A stretch of 32,689 nucleotides of DNA. Source: a virus. The notes under the pieces are model-generated. The model was not told where the DNA came from. It did not search any database and saw only the letters and a program-made list of their open reading frames with translations. Position numbers and translations under genes: made by a program. Below are positions 3,669-29,735 of this stretch, piece by piece. Position 1 is the stretch's first letter; the number at the start of each line of letters is the position of its first letter. The DNA is taken from positions 1 to 32,689 of IMG/VR virus record IMGVR_UViG_3300025736_000103; one strand, 5' to 3'.

Positions 3669-4652
3669 ATGACAGTTATATTTGCTTTAAAGAAACCAAT
3701 TAATGGAGAAAGTCCAGATGTGGATGAATTGATTACTAATCATTCATTTATTTTGGGAAATATGTTAGCATATGCTATTGATGGAGCTACAACAACAAAT
3801 CAAGGTAATTTTAAGTATGATGCTCTTGCGAATACAACGGGGATAGATACAGGTAACACTACTGCTTATTTTTCAAGTCCGATAGGAGGATACTTATTTT
3901 GTGAATCATTTGATGATTTTGGTGATGCTTCTATTGATGCTACCAAATGGAATACTACGGGAACACCAACTGAAACTGGTGGTTATTTAAATCTTGGTAG
4001 TTCTGGAGATATTGTAATTAGTAGTGGGGCATCAGGATTTGATGCAAAAACATTTAGTGGTAATTCAGAAATTATAATTGATGTTAATCCTACAAATGGG
4101 GATTCAGGAGCAGATTGGTCAGTCACAATCTCAAATGGTACAACTCACATAAATATTGCTGATGGTAATGGAACTGCTACTGCTCATTTATACAGAGTTG
4201 TAATTAATCAAGCTGGGGAAACAATGGATGTTTATACTGATGATACATTAACAGACAATGATGTTGATATCAGTTCAGTTACAACAAATTGGTATATAAG
4301 ATTTTATCGAACTGGAGGTACTGGTGTATTAAAAATTTTACAAGTAAGTTATGCTGAAACGGATACAACTGGAACTCAAGATGTTGTCACTGATACAGAA
4401 ACAGCAAGTTCAAATTCAGAAGCTGGTATCATTATGGGCAATATGTCTGCTGGTTCAATAGGGTCAAGTGAAATTGTATATAGTTCTGACAATGGTTCTA
4501 ATTATGCCACTGGTGATCAAAAAACTTTAATTAAGGCAACTGTAGCAGGGACAGGTGTTAAATTTAGATTTAGAATTGCTTTTGAAACAACAATAAGTGC
4601 TTCTGCAATGAATATTCCAACACTTACAAGTTATGCATACTATTACGGATGA
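3669..4652 (+). CDS. Tail fibre-like protein 2 with a lectin-like domain
   Basis: This 327-residue protein has a strong SD sequence (AGGAGG) before its ATG. Around residues 77-210 it has the signature of a concanavalin/LamG-type jelly roll: an ESFDDF...W segment followed by alternating hydrophobic strands ending near YIRFYRTGG. The N-terminal 60 residues probably anchor it to the tail. The final 90 residues are again beta-rich. A carbohydrate-binding receptor protein is the natural reading. The fold is inferred from pattern only. Confidence 0.6.
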   Translation: MTVIFALKKPINGESPDVDELITNHSFILGNMLAYAIDGATTTNQGNFKYDALANTTGIDTGNTTAYFSSPIGGYLFCESFDDFGDASIDATKWNTTGTPTETGGYLNLGSSGDIVISSGASGFDAKTFSGNSEIIIDVNPTNGDSGADWSVTISNGTTHINIADGNGTATAHLYRVVINQAGETMDVYTDDTLTDNDVDISSVTTNWYIRFYRTGGTGVLKILQVSYAETDTTGTQDVVTDTETASSNSEAGIIMGNMSAGSIGSSEIVYSSDNGSNYATGDQKTLIKATVAGTGVKFRFRIAFETTISASAMNIPTLTSYAYYYG

Positions 4653-5434
4653 TAAAAACAATACAAGAATGGATCAGAAGGATAACTGATTATCCACAAA
4701 TTGTAGATACTTGTGCAGATTTACTTCAAGGTAACAAGGCACATTTGGATCAAATTGAATTACTTAAAAGTCAAATAAAACAGTTGGAGATGAAGAAACA
4801 TGAAGAGGTTAATAATGCAGACTATTGGAATGAAAAGTGGCAAAAAAACACCATCAAATATTCAGCTCCGAAAAGGAAAAAAGTCACAGAGTATTTGGCT
4901 TATAGACCTATTGAAGGGATTACTATCACAGCTAATTTACTTATTGCTCTTCATAATTTGCACAATGTATCTGTGGATAAGATTCCACTAGTGGTGATGA
5001 AATGGGTTGAGAAGGAGTTTAAAGCTGGTGTGTTCAAGTATAAGTTAGATAAAGGAGAAATATGGGAGAAGCCAGAAGATGTCCTTAGAACTAAAGTAAA
5101 CGATTGTGACGGTTATGGTATTGTTGAGTATTATCTGATCAGAGAAATATTTAAAATGTTGAAAGTGTGGGAGTTTGTTAAACATCGGTTGAAGTGTGTT
5201 GACGGTCACGTTTACAATGTTGGAACTATCAATGTTTATGCTGGTCGGCATTTCTATTTAATGTGGTTACATTCTGATGGGGAATTTTACACAGTTGAAT
5301 CAACTTTCTATCGACCAAGAACTAAATCACAAAAATTGAATTTACAATATGGAACAATTAACTATACTTTTAATGAACAATTTAGTTGGGCACAAAAGTC
5401 AGTTTCAATAAGTAAAGGGGATTATAATGTTTAG
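4649..5434 (+). CDS. Transglutaminase-like cysteine peptidase (candidate cell-envelope lytic enzyme)
   Basis: The 261-residue product has an N-terminal helical part (1-65) with heptad-like spacing. A transglutaminase-like core follows: W139, the segment PEDVLRTKVNDCDG with probable nucleophile Cys153, then GRHFYLMW with probable catalytic His201, and the acidic residue Glu217 in YTVEST. The W-x-x-PED...DC[DE] arrangement resembles bacterial transglutaminase-like cysteine proteinases. Viruses of methanogens use Cys-His-Asp peptidases to cut pseudomurein, so a peptide-cutting lysin or entry enzyme is plausible. It lies after the fibres and before a holin-like gene, with ATGA coupling to the upstream gene. 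The substrate is unknown, and Glu in place of Asp is a point to check. Confidence 0.65.
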   Translation: MIKTIQEWIRRITDYPQIVDTCADLLQGNKAHLDQIELLKSQIKQLEMKKHEEVNNADYWNEKWQKNTIKYSAPKRKKVTEYLAYRPIEGITITANLLIALHNLHNVSVDKIPLVVMKWVEKEFKAGVFKYKLDKGEIWEKPEDVLRTKVNDCDGYGIVEYYLIREIFKMLKVWEFVKHRLKCVDGHVYNVGTINVYAGRHFYLMWLHSDGEFYTVESTFYRPRTKSQKLNLQYGTINYTFNEQFSWAQKSVSISKGDYNV

Positions 5435-6763: not shown

Positions 6764-7024
6764 TTAGGAAAGCGAAGTTATTAATTCTGCGAGTAATTGT
6801 TCATTAATACTATCTAAAGTCTCCTTATCTTCATAGTTTTCAAACTCAATGTACTTAATCCCTAATTGGTAATATGGCATAAAAACATAATCTTTTGTGT
6901 GAACATTAAACATCTCATAATATTTAAATACAAATCGTACGGAACAGGTGCCTTTTTTATTCATTAAATTAATGATGTCTGTACTGTAATGGCCGCCAAT
7001 TAGTTCTTTTTTATTTTTCTCCAT
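6764..7024 (-). CDS. 86-residue protein, last gene of the leftward operon
   Basis: The start has a clear SD (GAGAGGT, 5 bases upstream). The product is mixed alpha/beta with an aromatic centre and an acidic helical end. No motif is recognised. It is the promoter-distal end of the leftward operon. Confidence 0.6.
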   Translation of the reverse strand: MEKNKKELIGGHYSTDIINLMNKKGTCSVRFVFKYYEMFNVHTKDYVFMPYYQLGIKYIEFENYEDKETLDSINEQLLAELITSLS

Positions 7025-7054
7025 TTTTACCTCTCATTTGTTTATCTTTCCGTA

Positions 7055-7234
7055 TTAGTTATGCGAAGTTTCTAAAATCAAATCTAATATTAATTCCCTT
7101 CTCATTAATTTAGCCATTTTTACCTTTAATTGTAGTAATTCAAAATCAATTTCATTTTTATTTGATTCTTTGTATTTTCTAAATGCGGAATTTGAATAAC
7201 ATTCCAAAGCAAATTCTTTTAATTTATTTATAAT
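7055..7234 (-). CDS. Helical small protein with an apparent non-ATG start
   Basis: An open frame of about 59 codons follows a GAGAGG SD like that of the next gene, but no ATG, GTG or TTG sits at the right distance. The best-placed codons are ATT at 7234 and ATA at 7231. A TTG lies about nine codons further in, without an SD. The product is basic and helical with no recognised family. Either an unusual initiation codon or a mutated start is implied. Confidence 0.45.
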   Translation of the reverse strand: MINKLKEFALECYSNSAFRKYKESNKNEIDFELLQLKVKMAKLMRRELILDLILETSHN

Positions 7235-7246
7235 TTTATTTTCCTC

Positions 7247-7336
7247 TCATTTGTATTTTAATAAACATTTATTACAAATACTTATTTTGTAATCATACTC
7301 AAATTCAGTTCCACAATCATTACATTTACATTTCAT
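7247..7336 (-). CDS. 29-residue zinc-ribbon microprotein
   Basis: This protein starts MKCKCNDCG and has a second pair, CNKC, about a dozen residues later: four cysteines of a minimal zinc ribbon. It follows leader repeat copy 1. Its first 9 codons are identical to those of the gene at 8842-8913, because the duplication extends into the coding region. Confidence 0.5.
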   Translation of the reverse strand: MKCKCNDCGTEFEYDYKISICNKCLLKYK

Positions 7337-7443
7337 TGTTTATTTTTACGAAGGGAATCTTGCGAGATTGGGTATATCTTTTACACACCATTTTTGGTAG
7401 CAACCGATAAACATCTTTCGCATTCTCTTCATAATTTAGTTCT
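7309..7443 (-). repeat. Leader repeat, copy 1 (135 bases)
   Basis: This is identical to 8886-9020 except at one base (7372 versus 8949). It begins just after the methyltransferase coding region and runs into the start of a CxxC microgene. In the minus-strand RNA, UGCGAA near its 5' end can pair with UUCGUA near its 3' end (7417-7422 with 7347-7352). Inside are AATCT-CGCA-AGATT and ACCA-AAAA-TGGT hairpins. It also contains a 28-codon ORF (7346-7432), which differs by one residue from that in copy 2. Confidence 0.85.
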
Positions 7444-8389
7444 AGTACGAAGTTAACCCTTTTTGAGTTAATCTTTCTTCAGCAATTTTTATGTAATCTG
7501 TATTCAATTCAAACCCAATAAAATTTCTGCTTAGTTGATGACAGGCAACAGCAGTAGTTCCACTTCCCATAAAGCAATCTAAAACTAAGTCACCCTCATT
7601 ACTTGAAGCTTTGATGATTGTTCTTATCATTTCGATAGGTTTAACTGTTGGGTGATTGTATTTAGTCATTTCTAATTTATTGTTGTAATACCAAACATTA
7701 GGCATTATTTGTTTGTCATAACTAAATTTTCTTTTGTCTCTTGGATTCCTCTTAATCCTTATTGATTCATGGTTAAATGTATAAATTAGAGACTTAAAAT
7801 CTCTATAATCTTTATTTAATTCAAGAATTTTCTTTAATTTATCATAATGATTTTTAGAAGGAATCATAACATCTTTTTTGTTTCCCATATAACATGAAGC
7901 ACAACCTCCTCCTGTCGATGCCCACCCTAAATTTTTATTTATATCAGATAATGATAAATTTTTGTTTTTCCTTGCTTCATTTAGGTATTCCCAAATAGGA
8001 TTATTAATTTGACTTTTTGGTTTTGTGAAAAATAATAAATGTTCTGTAACATTAGCATAACTTCTTATTGCATTTTGTTCTTTTGAACCTTTGTCCCAGA
8101 TTATCCATGATGTTAATTTAACTTCTTTTTTGTTTAACATAACTTTTATATCAGCGATAAATCTAAAATCACCAAATACATAAATTCCTGATGTCCTTTT
8201 TGTTACTCTTATTATTTCATCAAAAACAGACTCCATCCAAATTAAATATTTTTTATCATCAAATTTGTCCCATTCATCTATTGATATGTTATATGGTGGG
8301 TCTATCACTACCAAATCAACTGAATTATCTTCTAATTGCTTCATTCCTTCAAGACAGTCCATGTTATGTATTTTGTTTATTTCTAACAT
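7442..8389 (-). CDS. DNA methyltransferase (beta class, DPPY; N6-adenine or N4-cytosine)
   Basis: The 315-residue protein has the catalytic motif IDPPY at 29-33 near the N-terminus and the AdoMet-binding motif CFMGSGTT at about 272-279 near the C-terminus. This is the order of beta-class amino-methyltransferases. A 100-residue central region with an HTH-like helix pair and a GGGCASC segment is the likely target-recognition insert. HPTVKP, typical of this family, lies before motif I. Its start overlaps the end of the preceding microgene. No restriction endonuclease is adjacent, so it is probably an orphan enzyme that masks or marks the viral DNA. The methylated sequence cannot be read from the gene. 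Confidence 0.9.
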   Translation of the reverse strand: MLEINKIHNMDCLEGMKQLEDNSVDLVVIDPPYNISIDEWDKFDDKKYLIWMESVFDEIIRVTKRTSGIYVFGDFRFIADIKVMLNKKEVKLTSWIIWDKGSKEQNAIRSYANVTEHLLFFTKPKSQINNPIWEYLNEARKNKNLSLSDINKNLGWASTGGGCASCYMGNKKDVMIPSKNHYDKLKKILELNKDYRDFKSLIYTFNHESIRIKRNPRDKRKFSYDKQIMPNVWYYNNKLEMTKYNHPTVKPIEMIRTIIKASSNEGDLVLDCFMGSGTTAVACHQLSRNFIGFELNTDYIKIAEERLTQKGLTSY

Positions 8390-8481
8390 TTTTCACCACA
8401 TCTAGGACATTCAGTAAAATCTTCTTGTTCATTGTGTCCACAATTATGAGGACACCAATATTTTATTTCTTTTCTTGCCAT
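8383..8481 (-). CDS. 32-residue zinc-ribbon microprotein
   Basis: The short product has CPHNCGH and CPRCGEKC, a clear zinc ribbon with a His as possible extra ligand. The stop overlaps the methyltransferase start (ATGTTAG), so the two are translated together. Confidence 0.6.
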   Translation of the reverse strand: MARKEIKYWCPHNCGHNEQEDFTECPRCGEKC

Positions 8482-8497
8482 TATTTTTCTTCATCTC

Positions 8498-8620
8498 CTA
8501 CTTCAATTGTGCATATTCTTCTAATTTCCTAATTTTTTTGTTTTGGTATAACATTACAATTGCAAGTAATAGTATAGATGTACCCATTAAAGCCAAACGT
8601 ATATCTATTTCATTTATCAT
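8498..8620 (-). CDS. 40-residue single-pass membrane protein
   Basis: A GGGGAGA SD precedes ATG 8620, and the gene overlaps the preceding stop. One hydrophobic helix spans about residues 9-25, followed by a basic, charged tail. The topology suggests a membrane anchor with a short cytoplasmic end. Function unknown. Confidence 0.55.
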   Translation of the reverse strand: MINEIDIRLALMGTSILLLAIVMLYQNKKIRKLEEYAQLK

Positions 8621-8814
8621 TCGTTCTCCCCACATATTATAAACTTCTTTACAACAGCATTAAGTTCCTTTAGACAATTTGGACATAATGCATGGCCCTT
8701 CACCATTTTCCACTTATTTGGTAACTTAAAATATCCTGACCAACTATTGTTAACTGGATATGACTTATCTAACTCTGCAGCATCATGACATCGTTCACAT
8801 TGTACTATTTCCAT
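8617..8814 (-). CDS. Zinc-ribbon protein, 65 residues
   Basis: The frame extends upstream to a GTG at 8829, but ATG 8814 is better placed behind the GGGGA. Two CxxC pairs (CERC near the N-terminus, CPNC near residue 50) flank a Trp-rich loop. A third Cys lies near the end. Probably a structural zinc site; role unknown. Confidence 0.6.
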   Translation of the reverse strand: MEIVQCERCHDAAELDKSYPVNNSWSGYFKLPNKWKMVKGHALCPNCLKELNAVVKKFIICGENE

Positions 8815-8841
8815 CTTCTTAGTCCCCACAATTTACGAGTT

Positions 8842-8913
8842 TTAAAGCAAAGTTCCTTGTTCTTTTGCTTTATCTCTACATTTCTTTCCACAATCATTAC
8901 ATTTACATTTCAT
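8842..8913 (-). CDS. 23-residue Cys-rich microprotein (possible degraded copy)
   Basis: The start is identical to the 29-residue gene at 7247-7336 (MKCKCNDCG). The second CxxC pair is missing and the tail differs, with a single extra Cys. It is probably a truncated or recombined copy made by the same duplication as the leader repeat. Confidence 0.35.
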   Translation of the reverse strand: MKCKCNDCGKKCRDKAKEQGTLL

Positions 8914-9020
8914 TGTTTATTTTTACGAAGGGAATCTTGCGAGATTGGATATATCTTTTACACACCATTTTTGGTAGCAACCGATAAACATCTTTCGCAT
9001 TCTCTTCATAATTTAGTTCT
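8886..9020 (-). repeat. Leader repeat, copy 2 (135 bases)
   Basis: This is the second near-perfect copy of the element at 7309-7443, offset by 1577 bases. It lies between the gene at 9045-9284 and the microgene at 8842-8913. The single difference changes one Pro codon to Ser in the internal 28-codon ORF (8923-9009). The terminal pairing and hairpins of copy 1 are preserved. Confidence 0.85.
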
Positions 9021-9044
9021 TTACTGTTGTTTATTTTTACGCAG

Positions 9045-9284
9045 TTACTCTTCTTCTTTCAGTGCTTCATCTATTACTTCATCAGTTACAGGGAATTTTC
9101 CTTGAACTTTTCCACAATCCATACAAAGATTAAATTCCATTGCATCTCCATAGTTCCCATACAAATTTAATCCTTCTCTCATGTATCCACTATAATCTTT
9201 TCCCTTAAAAGATAAGCTATGCGTGTCTCTGCCTTGACAATAACATTTAAGGATTCTTTCTGAATTACATTTATCACATTTCAT
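9045..9284 (-). CDS. Zinc-ribbon protein, 79 residues
   Basis: The N-terminus reads MKCDKC and is followed by a CYC pair. A CMDCG knuckle lies near residue 55, and an acidic helix ends the chain. A GAGAGGT SD lies upstream. The layout resembles small zinc-ribbon proteins common in virus early regions; the function is unknown. It is preceded by leader repeat copy 3. Confidence 0.65.
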   Translation of the reverse strand: MKCDKCNSERILKCYCQGRDTHSLSFKGKDYSGYMREGLNLYGNYGDAMEFNLCMDCGKVQGKFPVTDEVIDEALKEEE

Positions 9285-9303
9285 TTTCTTTTAACCTCTC
9301 ATT

Positions 9304-9419
9304 ATTTTTATGAAAGGAATATTGCGAGAGTTTGTTAGGTGCTGACCTTTGTGTCAACATTAATAAACTCGTCAGTTTAAACAATCCATTGACCCTTTCG
9401 CATTCTCTTCATAATTTAC
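9304..9419 (-). repeat. Leader repeat, diverged copy 3
   Basis: The two ends match copies 1 and 2 (about 20 bases at the 5' end and about 25 at the 3' end), but the middle is different and the internal ORF is lost. Pairing is kept by other bases: GAAAGG with CCTTTC closes the element, and a GGT-N4-ACC hairpin sits in the middle in all copies. AAACT-GACG-AGTTT competes with a longer GAGTTT/AAACTC pairing. This pattern favours a structured RNA over a peptide. Confidence 0.6.
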
Positions 9420-9420
9420 T

Positions 9421-9702
9421 TCAAATACACATTTGTCTTAATAGTTTTACAATTTTACTCTTATTATTTAGGATAAAATATTTTCTCCTTCCTTGAACTT
9501 TTCTTTTAGATTGTTCTATCAATCCTTCAATAAAAAGATTTTTCAATATTTTAGTTGTTGTGTTTCTACTAGCATTAGTTTCTCTTGCAATATCACTTAT
9601 TGTCACATGATATTCATCAAAATCAAGTAAAAATTCCATGATTCTAATTTGAGGCCCTGAACCAAATATTTTTTGTAATTTCATCATATTTCTACAATTC
9701 AT
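9421..9702 (-). CDS. Winged-helix transcriptional regulator
   Basis: ATG 9702 is chosen because of the GAGGTG SD; a longer frame upstream has none. The 93-residue protein has a winged HTH of MarR/ArsR style. It has a helix RIMEFLLD, then VTISDIARETNASRNTTTKILKNL as helix-turn-helix, and EQSKRKVQGRRKYFIL as the basic wing. Many archaeal viruses carry such proteins. It probably regulates this operon or the late promoters; the target is unknown. Confidence 0.8.
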   Translation of the reverse strand: MNCRNMMKLQKIFGSGPQIRIMEFLLDFDEYHVTISDIARETNASRNTTTKILKNLFIEGLIEQSKRKVQGRRKYFILNNKSKIVKLLRQMCI

Positions 9703-9730
9703 TTCCACACCTCTAGTATTCTTTCTCTCA

Positions 9731-9985
9731 TCATTGTACTTCGCACCCCTTACCATCACACTTTTGACATATTTGCCAAACTCTCTTTCCATCTTCATCT
9801 ATCCAGTTCTTGCCTTCACCTTTACAAATTAAACATTTCTCTTCAAACAAACCCTCTGCTTGTTGATCATCAATAAATTCTGATTCACATAAACTACAAC
9901 TCCAACGATTATCCATGATGTGAAGTAACACTCCAACTTTACATTCTTTGCAAACTGTTCTTCCCCTTTTTATTAATCTAAACAT
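9731..9985 (-). CDS. Multi-knuckle zinc protein (DnaJ-like CxxCxGxG repeats)
   Basis: The start at 9985 follows a GGAGG SD; an upstream in-frame ATG has no support. Of the 84 residues, eight cysteines form four pairs: CKEC, CSLC, CLICKGEG and CQKCDGKGC. The last two have the CxxCxGxG form of DnaJ cysteine-rich domains, which bind two zincs and hold unfolded proteins or act as scaffolds. No J domain is present. Confidence 0.7.
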   Translation of the reverse strand: MFRLIKRGRTVCKECKVGVLLHIMDNRWSCSLCESEFIDDQQAEGLFEEKCLICKGEGKNWIDEDGKRVWQICQKCDGKGCEVQ

Positions 9986-9986
9986 C

Positions 9987-10184
9987 TTATTCCTCCTTCG
10001 CCTTACTGACCAATTCAGTATAAGCGACCTTACAGATAAGAAAAACAACTAACAAAAAGGTTATAATCCCTAATACTAGAAAAATTTCTTTCTTAATCGC
10101 TACTTCAGAAAGAATAGCACAAACAACAGTAACTAGAGTTAGTACCATAATTAAAACTCCATATCTTTCTATTTCTTGTTTCAT
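9987..10184 (-). CDS. Two-pass small membrane protein
   Basis: The 65-residue product has two hydrophobic helices (about 9-27 and 34-52) and a charged C-terminus. AAGGTGA precedes the start. It lies next to another membrane microgene whose stop overlaps its start. Confidence 0.6.
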   Translation of the reverse strand: MKQEIERYGVLIMVLTLVTVVCAILSEVAIKKEIFLVLGIITFLLVVFLICKVAYTELVSKAKEE

Positions 10185-10309
10185 TTTTTAGTCACCTTTT
10201 CAGTCTTAACTGAATGGTATTTACCCGTTACGATAAAATATGATACCATAACACAAAAAAAGAATATTAATGCTTTAATCATCCATCCTGCTTGTATTTC
10301 AGTTAACAT
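10181..10309 (-). CDS. 42-residue single-pass membrane protein
   Basis: A hydrophobic helix at about residues 9-27 is followed by a basic tail. The stop overlaps the next ATG (ATGA). It begins immediately after the preceding stop and has no separate SD. Confidence 0.5.
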   Translation of the reverse strand: MLTEIQAGWMIKALIFFFCVMVSYFIVTGKYHSVKTEKVTKK

Positions 10310-10310
10310 T

Positions 10311-10493
10311 TTAATTATCTTTCTTAGTGGAGAACGAAGCTAAATGTTCTTCAACATCTTTTAGTAAAATATCTCTTGCAACAACCAGTTCTGCTCTAAC
10401 CAATTTCCATATTAATTTGTGTTCTGGCATTTCATGGATATATTCACTATAGTCTTCAATTAATCCTTTTAGGTAATCATCAATATGTTTCAT
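10311..10493 (-). CDS. 60-residue helical protein
   Basis: This acidic, helical protein has no Cys motif. The ATG overlaps the upstream stop, giving coupled translation. No recognised family. Confidence 0.55.
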   Translation of the reverse strand: MKHIDDYLKGLIEDYSEYIHEMPEHKLIWKLVRAELVVARDILLKDVEEHLASFSTKKDN

Positions 10494-10738
10494 TCTTTCA
10501 CCTTCTGATTTGCTGACAAGAACGATTCTTTTAACTTATCAAACACATTATAATCAATATTTAAACAAAATTCAAGTGGTTCTGAATTACAACAACTTGT
10601 TAATGATTCTTCTTTAATGGCATCAAACACTTCTTCCATTGCTTCCTTTCTTAACCTCATTCTTAACCAAGGTGGTGTGTTAGCAATTTCTAATAATTGT
10701 ATATGTTCTGGTGGTTTATGATATTCTGCTTTAGTCAT
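10490..10738 (-). CDS. 82-residue protein, unknown
   Basis: A strong AAAGGAGG SD precedes the ATG. The chain begins with a TPPWLRMRLRKEAMEE segment, Pro/Trp then a basic helix, and contains a CC pair in the middle. No family recognised. It sits directly behind the Gly-repeat gene. Confidence 0.6.
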   Translation of the reverse strand: MTKAEYHKPPEHIQLLEIANTPPWLRMRLRKEAMEEVFDAIKEESLTSCCNSEPLEFCLNIDYNVFDKLKESFLSANQKVKE

Positions 10739-10762
10739 TGTTTTCCTCCTTTGGCAATTTAA

Positions 10763-11035
10763 TTATCCATCTCCATTGCCAGAGCCATTGCCAGAGCCAT
10801 TGCCAGTGCCAGAGCCATCGCCATCGCCAAAGCCAGAGCCATCGCCATCGCCAAAGCCATAGCCAGAGCCATCGCCAAAGCCAGAGCCATCGCCAAAGCC
10901 ATAGCCATCACCAAAGCCATAGCCAGAGCCATCGCCAAAGCCAGAGCCAGAGCCATCGCCAAAGCCAGAGCCAGAGCCAAAGCCAGAGCCAGAGCCATTG
11001 CCAAAGCCATAGCCAGAGCCATCGCTTTTACTCAT
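10763..11035 (-). CDS. (X-Gly)n dipeptide-repeat protein
   Basis: After MSKSD, almost all of the 90-residue chain has Gly at every second position. The other residue is Ser, Phe, Asp, Tyr, Asn or Thr. The DNA is a six-base repeat, with GCC fixed and the other codon variable on the + strand. This frame is chosen because GAGGAG lies before its ATG and it overlaps the upstream stop. The overlapping repeat frames have no such signals. The composition suggests a flexible or aggregating, phase-separating chain. I recall similar ORFs in other phages but no known function. Confidence 0.7.
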   Translation of the reverse strand: MSKSDGSGYGFGNGSGSGFGSGSGFGDGSGSGFGDGSGYGFGDGYGFGDGSGFGDGSGYGFGDGDGSGFGDGDGSGTGNGSGNGSGNGDG

Positions 11036-11447
11036 TTTTTGTCCACTCCTCTACTTTTTTGATACTATCTTCTGCTTCTTTTGTACAAGGTATTACTTCA
11101 ATGATTCTGTTCAATTCAATTTCTGGTACTTCACAGGGAAATTTACATTTGTTAGGTTTGGCTACTCCTTTCATCGCCAATTCAGATAAACTTGCAGCTC
11201 CGTCCCAGTACCACAATCTTCTTGTGTTTTTCATAATTCCTTCTTGTTTATTTTTACTTACAAGAGTTCCTGCAAATACTCCAGCAGAGTATGTTCTAAC
11301 AATTACATACTTTCCGATGAATTTACTTTTTGCTGATTGTTGTAAGCATACTTCTTTTCCAAATAAGGAAGACAATTCTTCGTATGCTGTTTTGTGTTCT
11401 TCAAGTTTCTTTTTTGCTTCACCTATTGTTAATTTATTTATTTCCAT
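11028..11447 (-). CDS. DUF6948-like phage protein
   Basis: The 139-residue protein has a signature block at about 48-91: VIVRTYSAGV, then GTLV, then TRRLWYWDGAASLSELAMKGV, followed by KFPCEV and IIEVIPCT. This block recurs in uncharacterised phage proteins that I recall as DUF6948. The N-terminal 45 residues are a charged helix. Its role is unknown, though it is often found among early genes. Its stop overlaps the repeat gene start. Confidence 0.75.
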   Translation of the reverse strand: MEINKLTIGEAKKKLEEHKTAYEELSSLFGKEVCLQQSAKSKFIGKYVIVRTYSAGVFAGTLVSKNKQEGIMKNTRRLWYWDGAASLSELAMKGVAKPNKCKFPCEVPEIELNRIIEVIPCTKEAEDSIKKVEEWTKNE

Positions 11448-11449
11448 TT

Positions 11450-11788
11450 TTATTTTACCTCTTTGTCAATATGCGCAGTTGATTTTAGCTTTAAATCAGG
11501 TGATGTTGAACTAGCAGTGTCATTATGAGTGGTAGATGAATTATGTGTATATTTTATTCCACAATCCTCAAAGAATTGTTGTTTGTTAAATGGTTCTCTT
11601 TCTCCATGCCAACCACAACAACCTATTTTCCAAGAGTTTCCACACCATTGGCACTTACTATCTTCTTCCTTAAAGTATTTAGCTAATACTCCAATTAAAA
11701 AGGGATGTATAGCTTTACCCATAGATTTAGTTTTGTAGGAGTGTCTTTCTATAATCTCAGCTATTTTGCTGTAGTTTTCTTGGTTCAT
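11450..11788 (-). CDS. Cys/His-rich protein, 112 residues
   Basis: A GGAGGCG SD lies before the ATG, which overlaps the YopX stop (ATGA). Residues 1-40 are helical. The centre contains CQWCGNSWKIGCCGWHGE, a probable metal site. A Ser/Thr-rich, low-complexity tail follows. No family recognised. Confidence 0.6.
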   Translation of the reverse strand: MNQENYSKIAEIIERHSYKTKSMGKAIHPFLIGVLAKYFKEEDSKCQWCGNSWKIGCCGWHGEREPFNKQQFFEDCGIKYTHNSSTTHNDTASSTSPDLKLKSTAHIDKEVK

Positions 11789-12177
11789 TCCTTCGCCTCC
11801 TCTGGAGATTGTGCTAATTCTGGATTCTCATAGATGTTGCCAATAACTTCAAAATAACCACAATTCTCCATTTCCCAATCATCAATCCATTCTTCTTCTG
11901 TTAAGACATCGAAATAATACATTGCTGGATTATCATCCCAATCAATTCTTGCTCTTGCGGTGGATTTCTTCCCTTCATATTCGTAAGTTCTTTCAACAAT
12001 ATCCCCATCATAAATCTCTTTACCATTCTTGTCTTTAAGACCAGTGAATTGCATGATTTCAAAATCAGAGGAATTTAATATTGCCAATCGTTCATATTTA
12101 TCTAAAGTATTGTCCTCCTCATCTCCTCTAAAACAGTTATGTTCTTTATCCCAAGCTCTAAATTTAATCTCTCTCAT
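11785..12177 (-). CDS. YopX family protein
   Basis: This protein carries the hallmarks of the YopX family: an N-terminus MREIKFRAWD, the segment MQFTGLKDKNGKEIYDGDIV at about 42-61, a central W-rich beta part and a final EVIGNIYENPEL. At 130 residues it has the usual family size. YopX proteins are widespread in phages, and their biochemical role is not established. AGGTGA serves as SD, and the gene is the first after the structured leader at 12178-12352. Confidence 0.92.
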   Translation of the reverse strand: MREIKFRAWDKEHNCFRGDEEDNTLDKYERLAILNSSDFEIMQFTGLKDKNGKEIYDGDIVERTYEYEGKKSTARARIDWDDNPAMYYFDVLTEEEWIDDWEMENCGYFEVIGNIYENPELAQSPEEAKE

Positions 12178-12352
12178 TTTTCATTCACCTTATGTAGTTT
12201 ATACAACTCTCACCCAGCCAACCAAACGGGTAGGGCATACCAGTGTATCCGATGGTAACTTTGAGAGTTTGGTTGTTTTAACTGCCTGTATCGTATGTCA
12301 AAACTAAGACAAGTGCTGTTTAGTGGTTCGCTTTTTTGATTTTGTGCGAATC
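12178..12352 (-). promoter_or_regulatory. Structured leader RNA with two crossing stems
   Basis: This 175-base gap separates the prepilin-like gene from YopX. Two perfect complementarities cross each other. One is AACTCTCA (12205-12212) with TGAGAGTT (12262-12269). The other is CAACCAAAC (12219-12227) with GTTTGGTTG (12267-12275). In the minus-strand RNA they can form an H-type pseudoknot or two exclusive states. TACCA/TGGTA pairing lies within the loop. A 7-pair hairpin (12325-12331 with 12346-12352) stands directly after the upstream stop. Confidence 0.6.
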
Positions 12353-12718
12353 TTATCCCATGATTGGGTTAACTCCTATGACTAAATCTCCACAGCTACC
12401 CAAAAAATGTTTCTTATATTTTAATTCAACTCTTTGCTTGCTTTGTATGTACCATTTCATTATTTCTTTAATTGGACTATCTTCTTCCAAACAATATTGA
12501 TCAGTTTGACTACTTTCATATTCAGCCCTAATCCAAACACTATCAAAAAATATTCCTTCTTCAACAGTTGTCATGACACCATATGTGCTTCCTTCTCCAT
12601 ACTTAAATAATGGGAATGGTTGTACTAACAAAAATAGTAATGAAAATGTTACAATTGCTACCATTATTATACCTACTATTGCTAATAATTCAACATCAAT
12701 AAATCCTTTTTTCTTCAT
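12353..12718 (-). CDS. Prepilin-like single-pass membrane protein
   Basis: The 121-residue product starts MKKKGFIDVELL followed by about 20 hydrophobic residues. This is the type IV prepilin pattern: basic residues, Gly just before Phe (+1), Glu at +5 and a long hydrophobic helix. The rest is a soluble domain with two Cys (near 76 and 109) that could form a disulfide outside the cell. AGGAGG is the SD. A surface or pseudopilus-like role, or interference with host pili, is an inference. It could also be an ordinary N-terminally anchored protein. Confidence 0.6.
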   Translation of the reverse strand: MKKKGFIDVELLAIVGIIMVAIVTFSLLFLLVQPFPLFKYGEGSTYGVMTTVEEGIFFDSVWIRAEYESSQTDQYCLEEDSPIKEIMKWYIQSKQRVELKYKKHFLGSCGDLVIGVNPIMG

Positions 12719-12744
12719 TTTATTCCTCCTTCGCTTTCTTGATT

Positions 12745-12993
12745 TTATGCATCTCTCATCACCCTTAATTTTATTTTTAAATTCTTAATTTTTTTATAAT
12801 GTGAATCAATATAATATTTCATTAATTCAATTTTATATTTTTTAACATGTTTCCAAAAACATTGTTCACTTACAGGAATCCAATCATTTGTATGGGGATT
12901 TTTTCTTGGACCAACCTTCATTTCTCTTAAATTACATCTAACACAAATTCGTAAATCAGCACCAAACCATTCATATTTATGTATAAAACACAT
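12745..12993 (-). CDS. Zinc-knuckle protein, 82 residues
   Basis: The N-terminus has CFIHKYEWFG followed by CVRCNLRE, giving C-x2-H...C-x2-C, the layout of small phage zinc-binding proteins. The C-terminal half is a highly basic helix, which could contact nucleic acid. Specific function unknown. Confidence 0.65.
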   Translation of the reverse strand: MCFIHKYEWFGADLRICVRCNLREMKVGPRKNPHTNDWIPVSEQCFWKHVKKYKIELMKYYIDSHYKKIKNLKIKLRVMRDA

Positions 12994-13035
12994 TTTATTT
13001 ACATCTCCATTTTATTGAGTGTTTATGCATAATAA

Positions 13036-13203
13036 TTAATTGTCATCTTTACACTCACAAATCTTTAAGCCAAACTTAAATTCTCGAGCATGGCGAACTC
13101 CACCACATTTAGTACATATGGCAGCTAATGAACCATTGCAGTAAGCACACCGTTTAGTATTAGTGGTGGCAGTCCGGTGACAATCTTGACAACTAATTAA
13201 CAT
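13036..13203 (-). CDS. Double zinc-ribbon protein, 55 residues
   Basis: Start 13203 follows a GAGGTGA SD; a longer frame upstream lacks one. Four Cys pairs are present (CQDC, CAYC, CTKC, CEC), enough for two zinc sites in a very short chain. Its first codons lie inside the end of the neighbouring gene. Confidence 0.65.
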   Translation of the reverse strand: MLISCQDCHRTATTNTKRCAYCNGSLAAICTKCGGVRHAREFKFGLKICECKDDN

Positions 13204-13324
13204 TATAGTCACCTCTCTCTTTACAATCATTAATTTCATTTTCACATTTTACATGCATACCACAAAAATTATCATATACATATTGATCTGTGACCTCTTT
13301 ACCACAAAGTTTGCAAATGTTCAT
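13193..13324 (-). CDS. Zinc-knuckle microprotein, 43 residues
   Basis: The N-terminal CKLCG pair and the later C-x2-H and C residues could hold one zinc. A GAGGTG SD precedes ATG 13324, which overlaps the stop of the 199-residue gene, so expression is coupled. Confidence 0.6.
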   Translation of the reverse strand: MNICKLCGKEVTDQYVYDNFCGMHVKCENEINDCKERGDYNVN

Positions 13325-13920
13325 TGTAACACCTCTATTTTTTTGTTATTACCTAAAGTTGCCGCAGTTCTTATTTTCATTTCTTTTCTTAATTCTATCA
13401 AAATTCTATTCTCAAATTGAAGAGATATTGGTTTTTCCATCAAACAATGTTTAATTGTTGAATCAACAGAATAACAAAGGTCCTTAGCTGCTCTAAGTTC
13501 TGCTGCATATTTCTTAACAAGGTTTTTGACAGTGGTATCAGTTGCTTCTCTAATTATTGTTGGCAAATTGTTATTAATACAACTTCTTATTTTATAATCA
13601 ACATCATTAAATACATCATTATTAACTATTTGAACTTGAATTTCCCTTGTAATTAGTTGTATGATTTTTGAATTAAATGAAGTAATAAAATTGGGATGAT
13701 TTAAAACAGAATCAATATGTTTAAACATAGTCTGTTGTATTTGTTCCTGTTCTTCATCAATTAAATTTACTCTTTTTATTAGCTTAAATAAAGCATTGTT
13801 TAGGTATCCAATTGTTATTGGAGTTTCTTTTTGATGTTCATTTTCTTTTTTTAATGTACTTCTTTTATGTTTATTTTTACTTATAAAAATATCATCAATA
13901 TCCTCATACAATTTTGTCAT
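13321..13920 (-). CDS. 199-residue helical protein, unknown
   Basis: This is the first sizeable gene of the leftward operon, with GTGAGG ahead of its ATG. The protein is soluble, predominantly helical and basic at its N-terminus (about 15-30), with evenly spread charges and no Cys pairs. No enzymatic motif was recognised. Its position next to the divergent promoter suggests very early expression. Confidence 0.65.
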   Translation of the reverse strand: MTKLYEDIDDIFISKNKHKRSTLKKENEHQKETPITIGYLNNALFKLIKRVNLIDEEQEQIQQTMFKHIDSVLNHPNFITSFNSKIIQLITREIQVQIVNNDVFNDVDYKIRSCINNNLPTIIREATDTTVKNLVKKYAAELRAAKDLCYSVDSTIKHCLMEKPISLQFENRILIELRKEMKIRTAATLGNNKKIEVLQ

Positions 13921-14043: not shown

Positions 14044-14068
14044 ACACCAGTTAAGGTGATAATGGTGT
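14044..14068. promoter_or_regulatory. Operator-like inverted repeat at the leftward start site
   Basis: ACACCA (14044-14049) and TGGTGT (14063-14068) are perfect complements 13 bases apart. A third half-site GGTG lies between them at 14055-14058, making CACC-N6-GGTG. The repeat spans the transcription start expected from the leftward TATA box, so a bound repressor would block it. The AbrB-like or winged-helix protein is a candidate ligand. Confidence 0.45.
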
Positions 14069-14083
14069 ATAAGTATAACTTAC

Positions 14084-14096
14084 ATATAAATGTTTC
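14084..14096 (-). promoter_or_regulatory. Leftward archaeal promoter
   Basis: Read on the - strand this is GAAACATTTATAT: a purine-rich BRE followed by a TATA box. The expected start of transcription is near 14061, leaving a short 5' UTR to ATG 14026. The sequence is the exact mirror of the rightward promoter. Confidence 0.65.
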
Positions 14097-14134
14097 GTTT
14101 TTGTGTGACTACTAGGCAGTATATAGCCAGAAAG

Positions 14135-14147
14135 GAAACATTTATAT
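14135..14147 (+). promoter_or_regulatory. Rightward archaeal promoter
   Basis: GAAACATTTATAT on the + strand, preceded by AAAG, forms BRE plus TATA. Transcription should begin near 14171, 21 bases before ATG 14192, with the SD TTGGAGG in between. Together with 14084-14096 it makes a perfect 13-base inverted repeat. Confidence 0.65.
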
Positions 14148-14191
14148 ATTGGGTCCATTTATAGATAATTAAAGTTTTTGGAGGTTCACAA

Positions 14192-22889: not shown

Positions 22890-23084
22890 ATGACAATAAA
22901 CAAAGATGATGAAACGTTGGAACATTTACTTAGACTTGCCGATAATACTGCATCTGGAGTAATATTTCCTTTAATGGTAGAATATGCACTTATGCGTAAT
23001 AGAGGGATAAGAACCGAAGATACAATGGCATATATGGAACAAAGATATGCTGGACCAGGAGTGTTGTATCCCAACATAAAATAA
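22890..23084 (+). CDS. 64-residue protein, unknown
   Basis: ATG 22890 follows AGGTGG; an in-frame TTG 27 bases earlier is less likely. The protein is helical, acidic in its first half, with a GPGVLYPN end. It closes the terminase transcript before a promoter. Confidence 0.55.
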   Translation: MTINKDDETLEHLLRLADNTASGVIFPLMVEYALMRNRGIRTEDTMAYMEQRYAGPGVLYPNIK

Positions 23085-23104
23085 TATTATTTAAATACCT
23101 TAAT
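23084..23104 (+). promoter_or_regulatory. Late promoter element, copy A (21 bases, repeated)
   Basis: A TTTAAATA TATA box lies in a 21-base block that recurs exactly at 26560-26580. Transcription should start near 23120, about 60 bases before the portal ATG, which has its own SD AAAGAGG. Two identical elements suggest co-regulated head genes. Confidence 0.6.
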
Positions 23105-23181: not shown

Positions 23182-24561
23182 ATGGGAATCCTCGAACTGT
23201 ACAAGAACGCAAGAAAGTATCTAGCTAAAGATAGTGGGCTATTTATGAGTAATGGGAAGGCTAATACTAATAGAGCTCCATTGTTACCAAACTGGTTCTG
23301 GCAAACGGCATTAGGATCACCGAGAGGTATCAATGTAATTGAACTTAGACAATTCGCTAAATCTAATTGGTATCAGATGGTTAAGAGAACTATCAAGAAT
23401 CAAATTATGTTAACTGATTGGGATATAGTTCTGACTAATGAAGATGAAAATACTGATGAAAAAGTTTATCAAGAAGATATTGAGAAGATAAAACAATTAT
23501 TGAATTTCCCGAATAGGAATGGTATGACATTTGGTGAATTATGGGGAACTTACCTTGATGACCTTTTGGATCTTGATGCAGGAGTTATTTGGAAGGGGAG
23601 AAATGTTAGTGGTGAATTAACTGAATTATATTCTTATGATGGTGGAAGATTCTTATGGAAGATTGATCAACATGGAATTCTTGACCATTACTTACAATTT
23701 TCATTCTTATTTCCAACATCAGCCCCACTTCCATTCGATAAAGATGAATTGATATATGGGAAGATGGGTGTTAATAATGACATGTATCCTTATGGATGGT
23801 CACCTTTACAATCAATTCAACAAATCATTGAAATTATGATCCAGAGTGCAAGACAAAATAAAGAATTCTTTGAAAACAATTCTATCCCTGATGGGTTAGC
23901 TCAAGTTGATATGGATCAAGATGCATTGGATAGATTCAGAGCATATTGGCAACAACAAACTAAAGGGCAAGGGAGTAAGTTAGTTTTCACTAACGTTCCT
24001 GTTAATTTTGTACCAATGACTATGAGTAGGAAAGATATGCAATGGTTAGAAGGTGAGAAATGGTATTTCCATTTAATCTTTGGTGCATACGGATTAAGTC
24101 CTGCTGAAGTTGGATTCTATGATGATGTTAATCGAGCTAGTCAAGAAGGACAAGAAAGGACCACCGTTAAGAATGCAATAAGACCTTATTTAGTTCACAT
24201 TGCAGATAAGATTAATAGAGAAATTATCCCTGAATTGATTGATCATAAAGAGTTAGAATTCAGATGGTTCCCTAAAGATGATCAAGCAGAGAAGTTAGAA
24301 CATGAACAAACCATGGCTAAACTTAATGCTAACGTAATTACAATTAATGAAGTTCGAACCATGGAAGGTAAAGAACCTGTTGAATGGGGAGATCAACCAA
24401 TGGCGATGGCAATGCAAGAGCGAGCAGCTGAAATGATGCCAGATAATGGTAACAAAGATAATTCTAAAGACAATCCTAAAGATAAGAAGAAAGAGGAGGA
24501 AAAAGAGGATGCGAAGAAACTATATCAAAAGCTCTTCACCTCTTTCGTGAAACGTGGGTAA
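23182..24561 (+). CDS. Portal protein
   Basis: The 459-residue product has the portal pattern: an N-terminal ALGSPRGI...ELRQFAKSNWYQMVKRTIKNQI, the wing segment YGWSPLQSIQQIIEIMIQSARQNKEFFENN, and AYGLSPAEVGFYDD...RTTVKNAIRPYL. A Lys/Glu-rich tail follows (435-455). Portals form the dodecameric ring through which DNA enters the head. It lies after terminase and before the morphogenesis gene, as expected. SD AGAGG before the ATG. Confidence 0.88.
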   Translation: MGILELYKNARKYLAKDSGLFMSNGKANTNRAPLLPNWFWQTALGSPRGINVIELRQFAKSNWYQMVKRTIKNQIMLTDWDIVLTNEDENTDEKVYQEDIEKIKQLLNFPNRNGMTFGELWGTYLDDLLDLDAGVIWKGRNVSGELTELYSYDGGRFLWKIDQHGILDHYLQFSFLFPTSAPLPFDKDELIYGKMGVNNDMYPYGWSPLQSIQQIIEIMIQSARQNKEFFENNSIPDGLAQVDMDQDALDRFRAYWQQQTKGQGSKLVFTNVPVNFVPMTMSRKDMQWLEGEKWYFHLIFGAYGLSPAEVGFYDDVNRASQEGQERTTVKNAIRPYLVHIADKINREIIPELIDHKELEFRWFPKDDQAEKLEHEQTMAKLNANVITINEVRTMEGKEPVEWGDQPMAMAMQERAAEMMPDNGNKDNSKDNPKDKKKEEEKEDAKKLYQKLFTSFVKRG

Positions 24562-26114: not shown

Positions 26115-26555
26115 ATGACTTTTAAAAAAGGACAAATACCTTGGAATAAAGGAAAAACACATAGTGAAAAAACTAAAGAAAAATTAAGAAAATAAATTCT
26201 AAAACAATATTGTGATGGAACAAGAGATAAATTTGAGATAACTAAATCTGCCAATGAAGCAAAAAGGAATATTACATTAAAGAGATTTAATGAAGGGAAA
26301 TCAAAAAGAATGATTGGGAAAAGAGGATATTGGTTAATTTATCTACCTAAGGTAGAGTGGTATTTAGAACATCATTATATATGGGAAAGGTACCATAAAA
26401 GAAAAGTACCTAAAGGTTTTAACATTCACCATAAAGATTTTAATCCATTAAATAATAATATTGACAATTTAGAATTAATGACAGCAAGTGAACATTTAAA
26501 ATTACATTACACCAAAAGGAACATTGGTTCTGATGGTCGATTTCTACCTAACTAA
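26115..26555 (+). pseudogene. HNH homing endonuclease with NUMOD3 repeat, broken by an in-frame TAA
   Basis: ATG 26115 opens a frame with the NUMOD3 pattern IPWNKGKTHSEKTKEKLRK, typical of the DNA-binding tail of phage homing endonucleases. TAA at 26193-26195 interrupts it. The same frame then continues without stop to 26555 through an HNH domain (NIHHKDFNPLNNNIDNLELMTASEH). The catalytic His and Asn residues are intact, so the stop looks recent. Translation could restart at ATG 26310 and yield an 81-residue HNH core; a weak GAAGGG lies upstream. Insertion between two head genes is typical of free-standing homing genes. Confidence 0.85.
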
Positions 26556-26559
26556 ATAA

Positions 26560-26580
26560 ATATTATTTAAATACCTTAAT
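26560..26580 (+). promoter_or_regulatory. Late promoter element, copy B
   Basis: Exact repeat of the 21-base block at 23084-23104, with the same TTTAAATA box. The predicted start coincides with ATG 26597, so the first transcript ORF would be leaderless. Probable promoter of the protease-capsid transcript. Confidence 0.6.
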
Positions 26581-28647: not shown

Positions 28648-28899
28648 ATGGCAGATCACACAAGTGGAACTGTTGTTGCTTCTCCATTAGGTGACTTTTG
28701 GTTAGGTACAATAGAATTAAGTAATGGACAAGATGCTGATAATGTAGGTATTCAAGCTATTATGGGTAGAAAGATTGGGGGAATTGCATTTGCAAATGCT
28801 AATTCAGGAACTTGCTCTTTCAGTACTACATCTGGAACCGTAACATTATCCGGAACAAGTAACTTTGTCTTTTTTCAAGCATTGAGTAAAGCACAATAA
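28648..28899 (+). CDS. Small beta-rich protein A1 (possible capsid decoration)
   Basis: The 83-residue product follows the capsid gene with SD AGGAGG. It is nearly all beta-type with Gly, Ser and Thr, and is clearly a paralogue of the next gene (identical first 8 residues, then GDFWLG shared). Small abundant beta proteins behind a capsid gene are often decoration or spike proteins. Candidate role only. Confidence 0.6.
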   Translation: MADHTSGTVVASPLGDFWLGTIELSNGQDADNVGIQAIMGRKIGGIAFANANSGTCSFSTTSGTVTLSGTSNFVFFQALSKAQ

Positions 28900-28951
28900 A
28901 AATATATTTTTTTATTTTTTATATTTTTTACAATTAAGAGGTAAATAAAAA

Positions 28952-29203
28952 ATGGCAGATCACACAAGCGGAACAGTTGTAGCCTCTCCTTTAGGAGACT
29001 TTTGGTTGGGTTCAGTTGAAGTAACTGGAGCAGCAACAGGAGATAATATTGGTATTCAACATATCATGGGTAACAAAATCAATGGAATTACTTATGCTGT
29101 AGCAGGTTCAGGAACAGTAACTTTTAGTACTACATCTGGAACTGTAACGTTGGCAGAATCTAGTAACACTGTATTTTTTCAAGCAATAAGTGAAAATCAA
29201 TAA
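28952..29203 (+). CDS. Small beta-rich protein A2, duplicate of A1
   Basis: This protein is identical in length (83) to the previous one, and its start MADHTSGTVVASPLGDFWLG repeats exactly. The middle has diverged while the TFSTTSGTVTL end is kept. Separate SD GAGGT. The DNA between the pair is T-rich and may attenuate transcription. Confidence 0.6.
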   Translation: MADHTSGTVVASPLGDFWLGSVEVTGAATGDNIGIQHIMGNKINGITYAVAGSGTVTFSTTSGTVTLAESSNTVFFQAISENQ

Positions 29204-29243
29204 AAATATTTTTATTTTTATTAACAAATAGGAGGAAAAAACC

Positions 29244-29489
29244 ATGGCAAGTGGAACAGTAGAATATGTCGTTGAAACGATGAACACTAACAAGGAAGTT
29301 GTTAGATTAAACGTTGACGATGAGGATACATATACAAGTAGAAAATTTAATACTATTCAAGCAGCAGAAGTAACAGGGAATGCTGATTCAGATGCACACA
29401 TTAACGTAACTTTTAGTGGAACAGTGGCAACTGTAAATTGGGCTTCAGTAGCAAAGAGTGATTGTACATTAGTCTTGTGGGGTGAATAG
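29244..29489 (+). CDS. Small beta-rich protein B1
   Basis: This 81-residue protein follows SD AGGAGG and is the first of a second paralogue pair. Shared with B2: a beta segment ending TYTSRKF/TYLTRKY, then TIQAA, HINVTFSG and a final LWG. It may trimerise as capsid decoration or form the connector; unproven. Confidence 0.6.
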   Translation: MASGTVEYVVETMNTNKEVVRLNVDDEDTYTSRKFNTIQAAEVTGNADSDAHINVTFSGTVATVNWASVAKSDCTLVLWGE

Positions 29490-29735
29490 ATGGCAGCGGC
29501 AACAGTATTAAGAGTCATTGAATCACCTGATCCAACAGAAGAAGTTGTAGTATTAACTGCATCTGATGGTGAAACGTACTTAACAAGAAAATATACAACC
29601 ATTCAAGCAGCAAGTGTCAAATCTAATTATAATACTGATTCCCACATTAATGTTACATTTAGTGGGGCAACAGCAACAATTAATTGGAATGGACAAACTG
29701 ATAAAATGTGTACATTAACTTTGTGGGGAAGATAA
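29490..29735 (+). CDS. Small beta-rich protein B2, duplicate of B1
   Basis: Same length (81) as B1 and the same order of conserved blocks, including HINVTFSG and the LWGR end, but about half the other positions differ. It starts directly after the B1 stop with GGGGTGA as SD. Confidence 0.6.
   Translation: MAAATVLRVIESPDPTEEVVVLTASDGETYLTRKYTTIQAASVKSNYNTDSHINVTFSGATATINWNGQTDKMCTLTLWGR

Follow-up and report, generated by a model that had tools for sequence, protein, structure and literature searches.

A palindromic repeat found three times between the genes of one operon in a single virus population

An operon of the virus record IMGVR_UViG_3300025736_000103 carries, between its co-directed genes, three copies of a repeat with conserved complementary ends and unrelated cores. 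The window, that is, the whole stretch of DNA that was analysed, is this 32.7-kb virus record (32,689 nucleotides). The repeat is small, genuine and belongs to one virus population; by its letters it should form a hairpin, and these letters are equally compatible with a role at the RNA level and with one at the DNA level. All three copies lie within 2.1 kb, in a leftward operon whose genes run from 13,920 to 6,764 on the minus strand. An earlier note on this DNA had described a hairpin-forming element, present three times between genes of one operon and ahead of small CxxC ORFs, and this arrangement was borne out. The features are the following.

7309..7443, minus strand: copy 1, predicted hairpin leader plus the first 9 codons of a small CxxC ORF
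8886..9020, minus strand: copy 2, predicted hairpin leader plus the first 9 codons of a CxxC ORF
9300..9424, minus strand: copy 3, ends as in copies 1 and 2, longer unrelated core
7415..7442, minus strand: copy 1, 28-nt conserved end on the left (5')
7340..7366, minus strand: copy 1, 27-nt conserved end on the right (3'), forming 16 bp with the left end
9027..9052, minus strand: partial extra right end, 22/26 identical, between the stop of 9045-9284 and copy 2
7346..7432, minus strand: 28-codon ORF inside copy 1, MKRMRKMFIGCYQKWCVKDIPNLARFPS, no Shine-Dalgarno sequence (SD), stop 9 nt before the CxxC ATG
7247..7336, minus strand: Zn-ribbon-like ORF after copy 1, 29 codons, MKCKCNDCGTEFEYDYKISICNKCLLKYK, no SD
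8842..8913, minus strand: CxxC ORF after copy 2, 23 codons, MKCKCNDCGKKCRDKAKEQGTLL, no SD
9045..9284, minus strand: CxxC gene after copy 3, 79 aa, own SD (GAGGT)
7442..8389, minus strand: N6/N4 DNA methyltransferase gene, ending at copy 1 (Pfam PF01555, E 2.5e-51)
9421..9798, minus strand: winged-helix (MarR-like) regulator gene, ending at copy 3 (Pfam PF12802, E 3.8e-6)

Copies 1 and 2 are one base apart, as had been reported (134/135 identical), and the repeat is well beyond chance (E 2.8e-66 for copy 2). The third copy was said to keep the ends and a central GGT-N4-ACC hairpin. Its ends are indeed kept: the left one, GAA[C/G]TAAATTATGAAGAGAATGCGAAAG, has 1 mismatch in 28 bases, compared with 8 at the second-best site of the window, and the right one, CTCGCAAnATTCCnTTCnTAAAAATAA, has 3 in 27. 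The hairpin part of the claim fell, since GGT-N4-ACC is present in both core types at unrelated positions and is not part of either predicted hairpin. Alignment of the 48-nt core of copy 1 with the 66-nt core of copy 3 was no better than that of shuffled sequence. A position right after a stop codon holds for copies 1 and 3 (TAG 7444-7442 and TGA 9423-9421), whereas 24 nt separate copy 2 from the upstream stop, and this gap holds the partial right end. The left boundary (GAA) is constant in both comparisons, copies 1/2 and copies 1/3, and the repeat of copies 1 and 2 extends into the next ORF up to codon 9; by these boundaries, the duplicated unit is the leader with the start of the ORF. Downstream of every copy, the ORF begins ATGAAATGT (MKC...).

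The stem common to all copies comprises 16 bp, in which UUAUGAAG-A-GAAU-GCGA pairs with UCGC-AAG-AUUC-C-CUUCGUAA, the right arm of copy 3 being UCGC-AAU-AUUC-C-UUUCAUAA. It is imperfect, and would be contained in any minus-strand transcript of the operon. Folding z was -5.1 for trimmed copy 1, -5.0 for trimmed copy 2 and -2.95 for copy 3, and the duplex energy of the two ends was matched by 4/5000 shuffles for copy 1 and 23/5000 for copy 3; since the copies have homologous arms, these values are not independent tests. In the shared stem 48/48 cells were paired, against 38-54% when the partner was slid by 1 to 3 columns.

Structure at the RNA level had earlier been argued from compensatory pairing. 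This argument did not hold, as 0/16 pairs of the shared stem are changed on both sides and 2/16 on one side, a count drawn from no more than two independent types of sequence; on the minus strand, each of the two one-sided changes still leaves a standard pair (U.G to U-A, G-C to G.U). Covariation, by which a structured RNA may be recognised, was thus not seen in the shared 16-bp stem of the three copies. The closing stems proposed before, UGCGAA/UUCGUA and GAAAGG/CCUUUC, turned out to be weak alternative pairings. Forcing them gave -16.4 versus -27.3 kcal/mol in copy 1 and -22.4 versus -28.0 in copy 3, that is, 11 and 6 kcal/mol worse than the shared long stem. A core helix with compensatory changes proposed by RNAalifold was also rejected: under three gap settings, the alignment was no better than that of dinucleotide-shuffled cores (p about 0.4-0.7), and none of these settings aligned the pairs of the helix. 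The lesson is that stems which look compensatory to the eye may be alternatives to a better pairing common to all copies.

Folding of the plus strand is about as favourable as that of the minus strand, with duplex energies of -15.3 and -13.3 kcal/mol versus -14.5 and -12.5 kcal/mol. The two are about equal because one mismatch per strand becomes a wobble on the other strand. The wobble pair once taken as an argument for the minus strand is cancelled in this way, an A.C mismatch of the minus strand being a U.G pair of the plus strand. Near-equal strand energies mean that RNA and DNA function cannot be separated from the sequence alone. Stems of comparable energy were found elsewhere in the operon.

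Relatives were sought with exact and gapped patterns in 2.9 million viral contigs, with the gapped pattern in 84,980 species genomes, by BLASTN in phages and plasmids, in Rfam and with a covariance model. None of these scans revealed a homologue except in the sister record of the window, IMGVR_UViG_3300031227_000003 (G001; 40,506 bases). It matches the entire window with 99.8-100% identity, and about 7.7 kb of it is missing from the window. Its ends (1-127 and 40380-40506) form an exact terminal repeat of 127 bases, which makes it likely that the record is a whole genome of about 40.4 kb, either circular or terminally redundant. Its copies are identical to those of the window, hence uninformative on covariation, and no additional copy was found in it. 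Over the first 10.3 kb, the two records differ by one event at 5321, the insertion of 18 bases together with a change of the neighbouring base. This insertion, at window 5321-5322, is in frame inside the ORF 4649-5434, which reads RPRTKSQ in the window and RPRAILNFGNKSQ in G001.

DNA-pattern matches in the viral contigs (42/43, 11/12 and 1/2) and the single match of the gapped pattern among the 84,980 species genomes were discarded, being without the stem or in unrelated GC-rich genomes. The covariance model, run on 50 sources and then on 29 whole records (the window and 28 relatives), returned nothing outside the window beyond E 0.08, which is chance level. When relatives were traced via the primase, terminase, methyltransferase and regulator, only G001 carried the region; the closest relative of the replication module (G002, primase 47% identity) had no copy. 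The further copies predicted before CxxC genes of archaeal viruses were likewise searched for and not found. Rfam gave no match above the gathering threshold anywhere in the window, the sub-threshold ones being snoRNA chance matches outside the copies (E up to 5). ARAGORN detected no tRNA or tmRNA in the window, and looking through the letters by eye revealed no complete hammerhead, C/D or H/ACA motif, in line with the negative Rfam result. With no homologue in another virus, we regard the stem as genuine complementarity, short of independent evolutionary proof.

Could the repeat spread as DNA, transcript folding being incidental? A small MITE- or ERIC-like element, or a protein-binding inverted repeat, would account for the inverted-repeat ends around unrelated cores, the constant left boundary, the partial right end adjoining copy 2 and the equal strand energies. 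Terminal inverted repeats around variable cores are indeed what such elements have. However, no target-site duplication was seen at the copy flanks, there is a 3-nt offset within the inverted repeat, no further copy exists in the 40.4-kb sister genome or at unrelated places in the scanned collections, and no transposase was recognised among the scanned window proteins. We consider this explanation rather unlikely.

The one-base difference between copies 1 and 2, together with the 9 downstream codons they have in common, could also reflect recent copying or gene conversion without function, copy 3 being in decay. Neutral decay, however, would not spare just the complementary ends, and those of copy 3 are nearly intact around an unrecognisable core, which makes such a history improbable. 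Conserved complementary ends with unrelated cores would instead be the expected trace of selection on the stem, and the constant left boundary would fit a discrete unit.

We therefore lean, tentatively, towards a palindromic intercistronic leader that was duplicated along with the first codons of a small Zn-ribbon ORF and that acts as an mRNA hairpin affecting the downstream cistron. An argument for the RNA level is the location of the copies inside a transcribed operon. Each copy would fold into the 16-bp hairpin within the polycistronic mRNA and set the small downstream cistron apart from the upstream gene, by protection of an mRNA end, by cleavage or by control of ribosome access. The core would be free to vary because only the stem would matter. 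An SD is present in most other genes of the operon and absent from both the CxxC ORF and the inner ORF of copies 1 and 2; translation of this CxxC ORF would then depend on the leader. The lack of an SD there, compared with GAGGT in copy 3, suggests a part for the leader in translating the downstream ORF of copies 1 and 2. Such a leader may be an RNA switch or a processing site.

Dependence on the leader might also be achieved by its short ORF. The 28-codon ORF occurs in copies 1 and 2 and, in agreement with its reported loss in copy 3, is cut to 11 codons there. Its translation could follow the upstream stop and, ending 9 nt short of the SD-less CxxC ATG, be coupled to that of the CxxC ORF. 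The positions of ORF, stop and SD suit such coupling, as do the ORF start (ATGAAGAGAATGCGAAAG), identical in all copies, and the presence of an own SD on the CxxC gene of copy 3, where the ORF is shortened. However, reinitiation in Haloferax volcanii and E. coli falls steeply with distance and is almost abolished at about 20 nt, and -4/-1 overlaps are the rule (PMC10666635), so that published data favour overlaps. Moreover, the sole difference between copies 1 and 2 within this ORF changes an amino acid (P/S), and no homologue was found. We hold this coupling to be very unlikely. Coding in the third frame (...ELNYEENAK...SRKIPFVKINNEM) was considered and rejected: this frame is open in copies 1 and 2, has stops in copy 3 and has no phage or PHROG homologue.

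Tiny Zn-ribbon/CxxC ORFs are unusually many in the operon (6764-13920), with about seven, e.g. 8617-8829, 9045-9284, 9731-10048 and 13036-13245. The Zn-ribbon-like ORF following copy 1 has weak PHROG similarity only. The operon also contains a 12/18-base tandem repeat (10719-11055), in which one frame encodes a Gly/Ser/Asp-rich protein (GSGFGDGSG...), and a second frame of the same strand gives an Ala/Leu/Met repeat (MALALA...).

The window encodes a large terminase, a portal, a Mu-F-like head protein and a major head protein. Its host is likely, not proven, to be an archaeon: divergent promoters at ~14,080-14,160 (CGAAACATTTATATG, GGAAACATTTATATA) resemble archaeal BRE/TATA boxes, and the encoded proteins include an ERCC4 nuclease and a winged-helix regulator, whereas the named phages closest by terminase are Bacteroidota phages.

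With such a host, the tRNA-splicing endonuclease might process the mRNA at a relaxed bulge-helix-bulge site or release a 56- or 74-nt piece. In the candidate register, GCGA/UCGC is the 4-bp central helix, the 3' strand carries a 3-nt bulge (AAG or AAU), and the candidate cut would fall at the position cleaved in canonical tRNA introns. An outer helix, a 3-nt bulge and a 4-bp central helix define the hBH type (PMC3978253). Sequence permits this geometry in all copies, such motifs being frequent by chance, and the promoters look archaeal. Yet the register is a minority one (0.30 versus 0.68 and 0.29 versus 0.68 for the 5-bp register), and about 20 such motifs per 40-kb genome occur in predicted folds anyway. 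The strict hBHBh' form, with two opposite 3-nt bulges, a 4-bp helix and flanking helices on both sides, was not found in the copies: the 5' bulge is 2 nt or open, and the inner helix is not common to the copies. We give this possibility very little credence. In one register, the copies would thus resemble the archaeal motif in its outer helix, its 3-nt bulge and its 4-bp central helix; they differ from it in that this register is in the minority, lacks the strict 5' bulge and inner helix, and is not located in a tRNA, an rRNA or a split gene. If the reading were true, an archaeal virus would rely on the host's machinery for tRNA introns to cleave or splice the mRNA of its early operon between genes.

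Two better-known arrangements can be compared with the preferred hairpin leader. REP/BIME and ERIC are intercistronic palindromic repeats of bacterial operons. Like the copies described here, they are imperfect palindromes between co-transcribed genes, multi-copy and with variable cores; unlike them, the present repeat consists of three copies in one virus, has conserved flanks past the stem and was copied together with the first codons of the ORF that follows. The likeness is one of arrangement, a relation in sequence not being established. In the early operon of T7, RNase III processing hairpins separate early genes, and these, like the hairpins predicted here, lie between early genes of one viral polycistronic mRNA. 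In contrast to T7, the host is here probably archaeal, and RNase III is mostly absent from archaea. Should the stem have a function, this tailed virus, whose host is probably archaeal, would carry a repeated element for intercistronic control or processing; to our knowledge, little is known of post-transcriptional regulation in such viruses. At present it is a genuine but unplaced repeat of a single virus population.

Other repeats were observed in the window. An inverted repeat (14060-14171) contains both divergent archaeal-type promoters (GAAACATTTATAT); the leftward operon and a small AbrB-like ORF (about 14,190) both lie downstream of it. A 28-base repeat, TATTATTTAAATACCTTAAT, 93% identical between 23077-23104 and 26553-26580, precedes the genes at 23182 and 26674, and is probably a promoter. 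At 28648-29735, directly after the major head protein, small virion-type genes are duplicated in two pairs (28648/28952 and 29244/29490).
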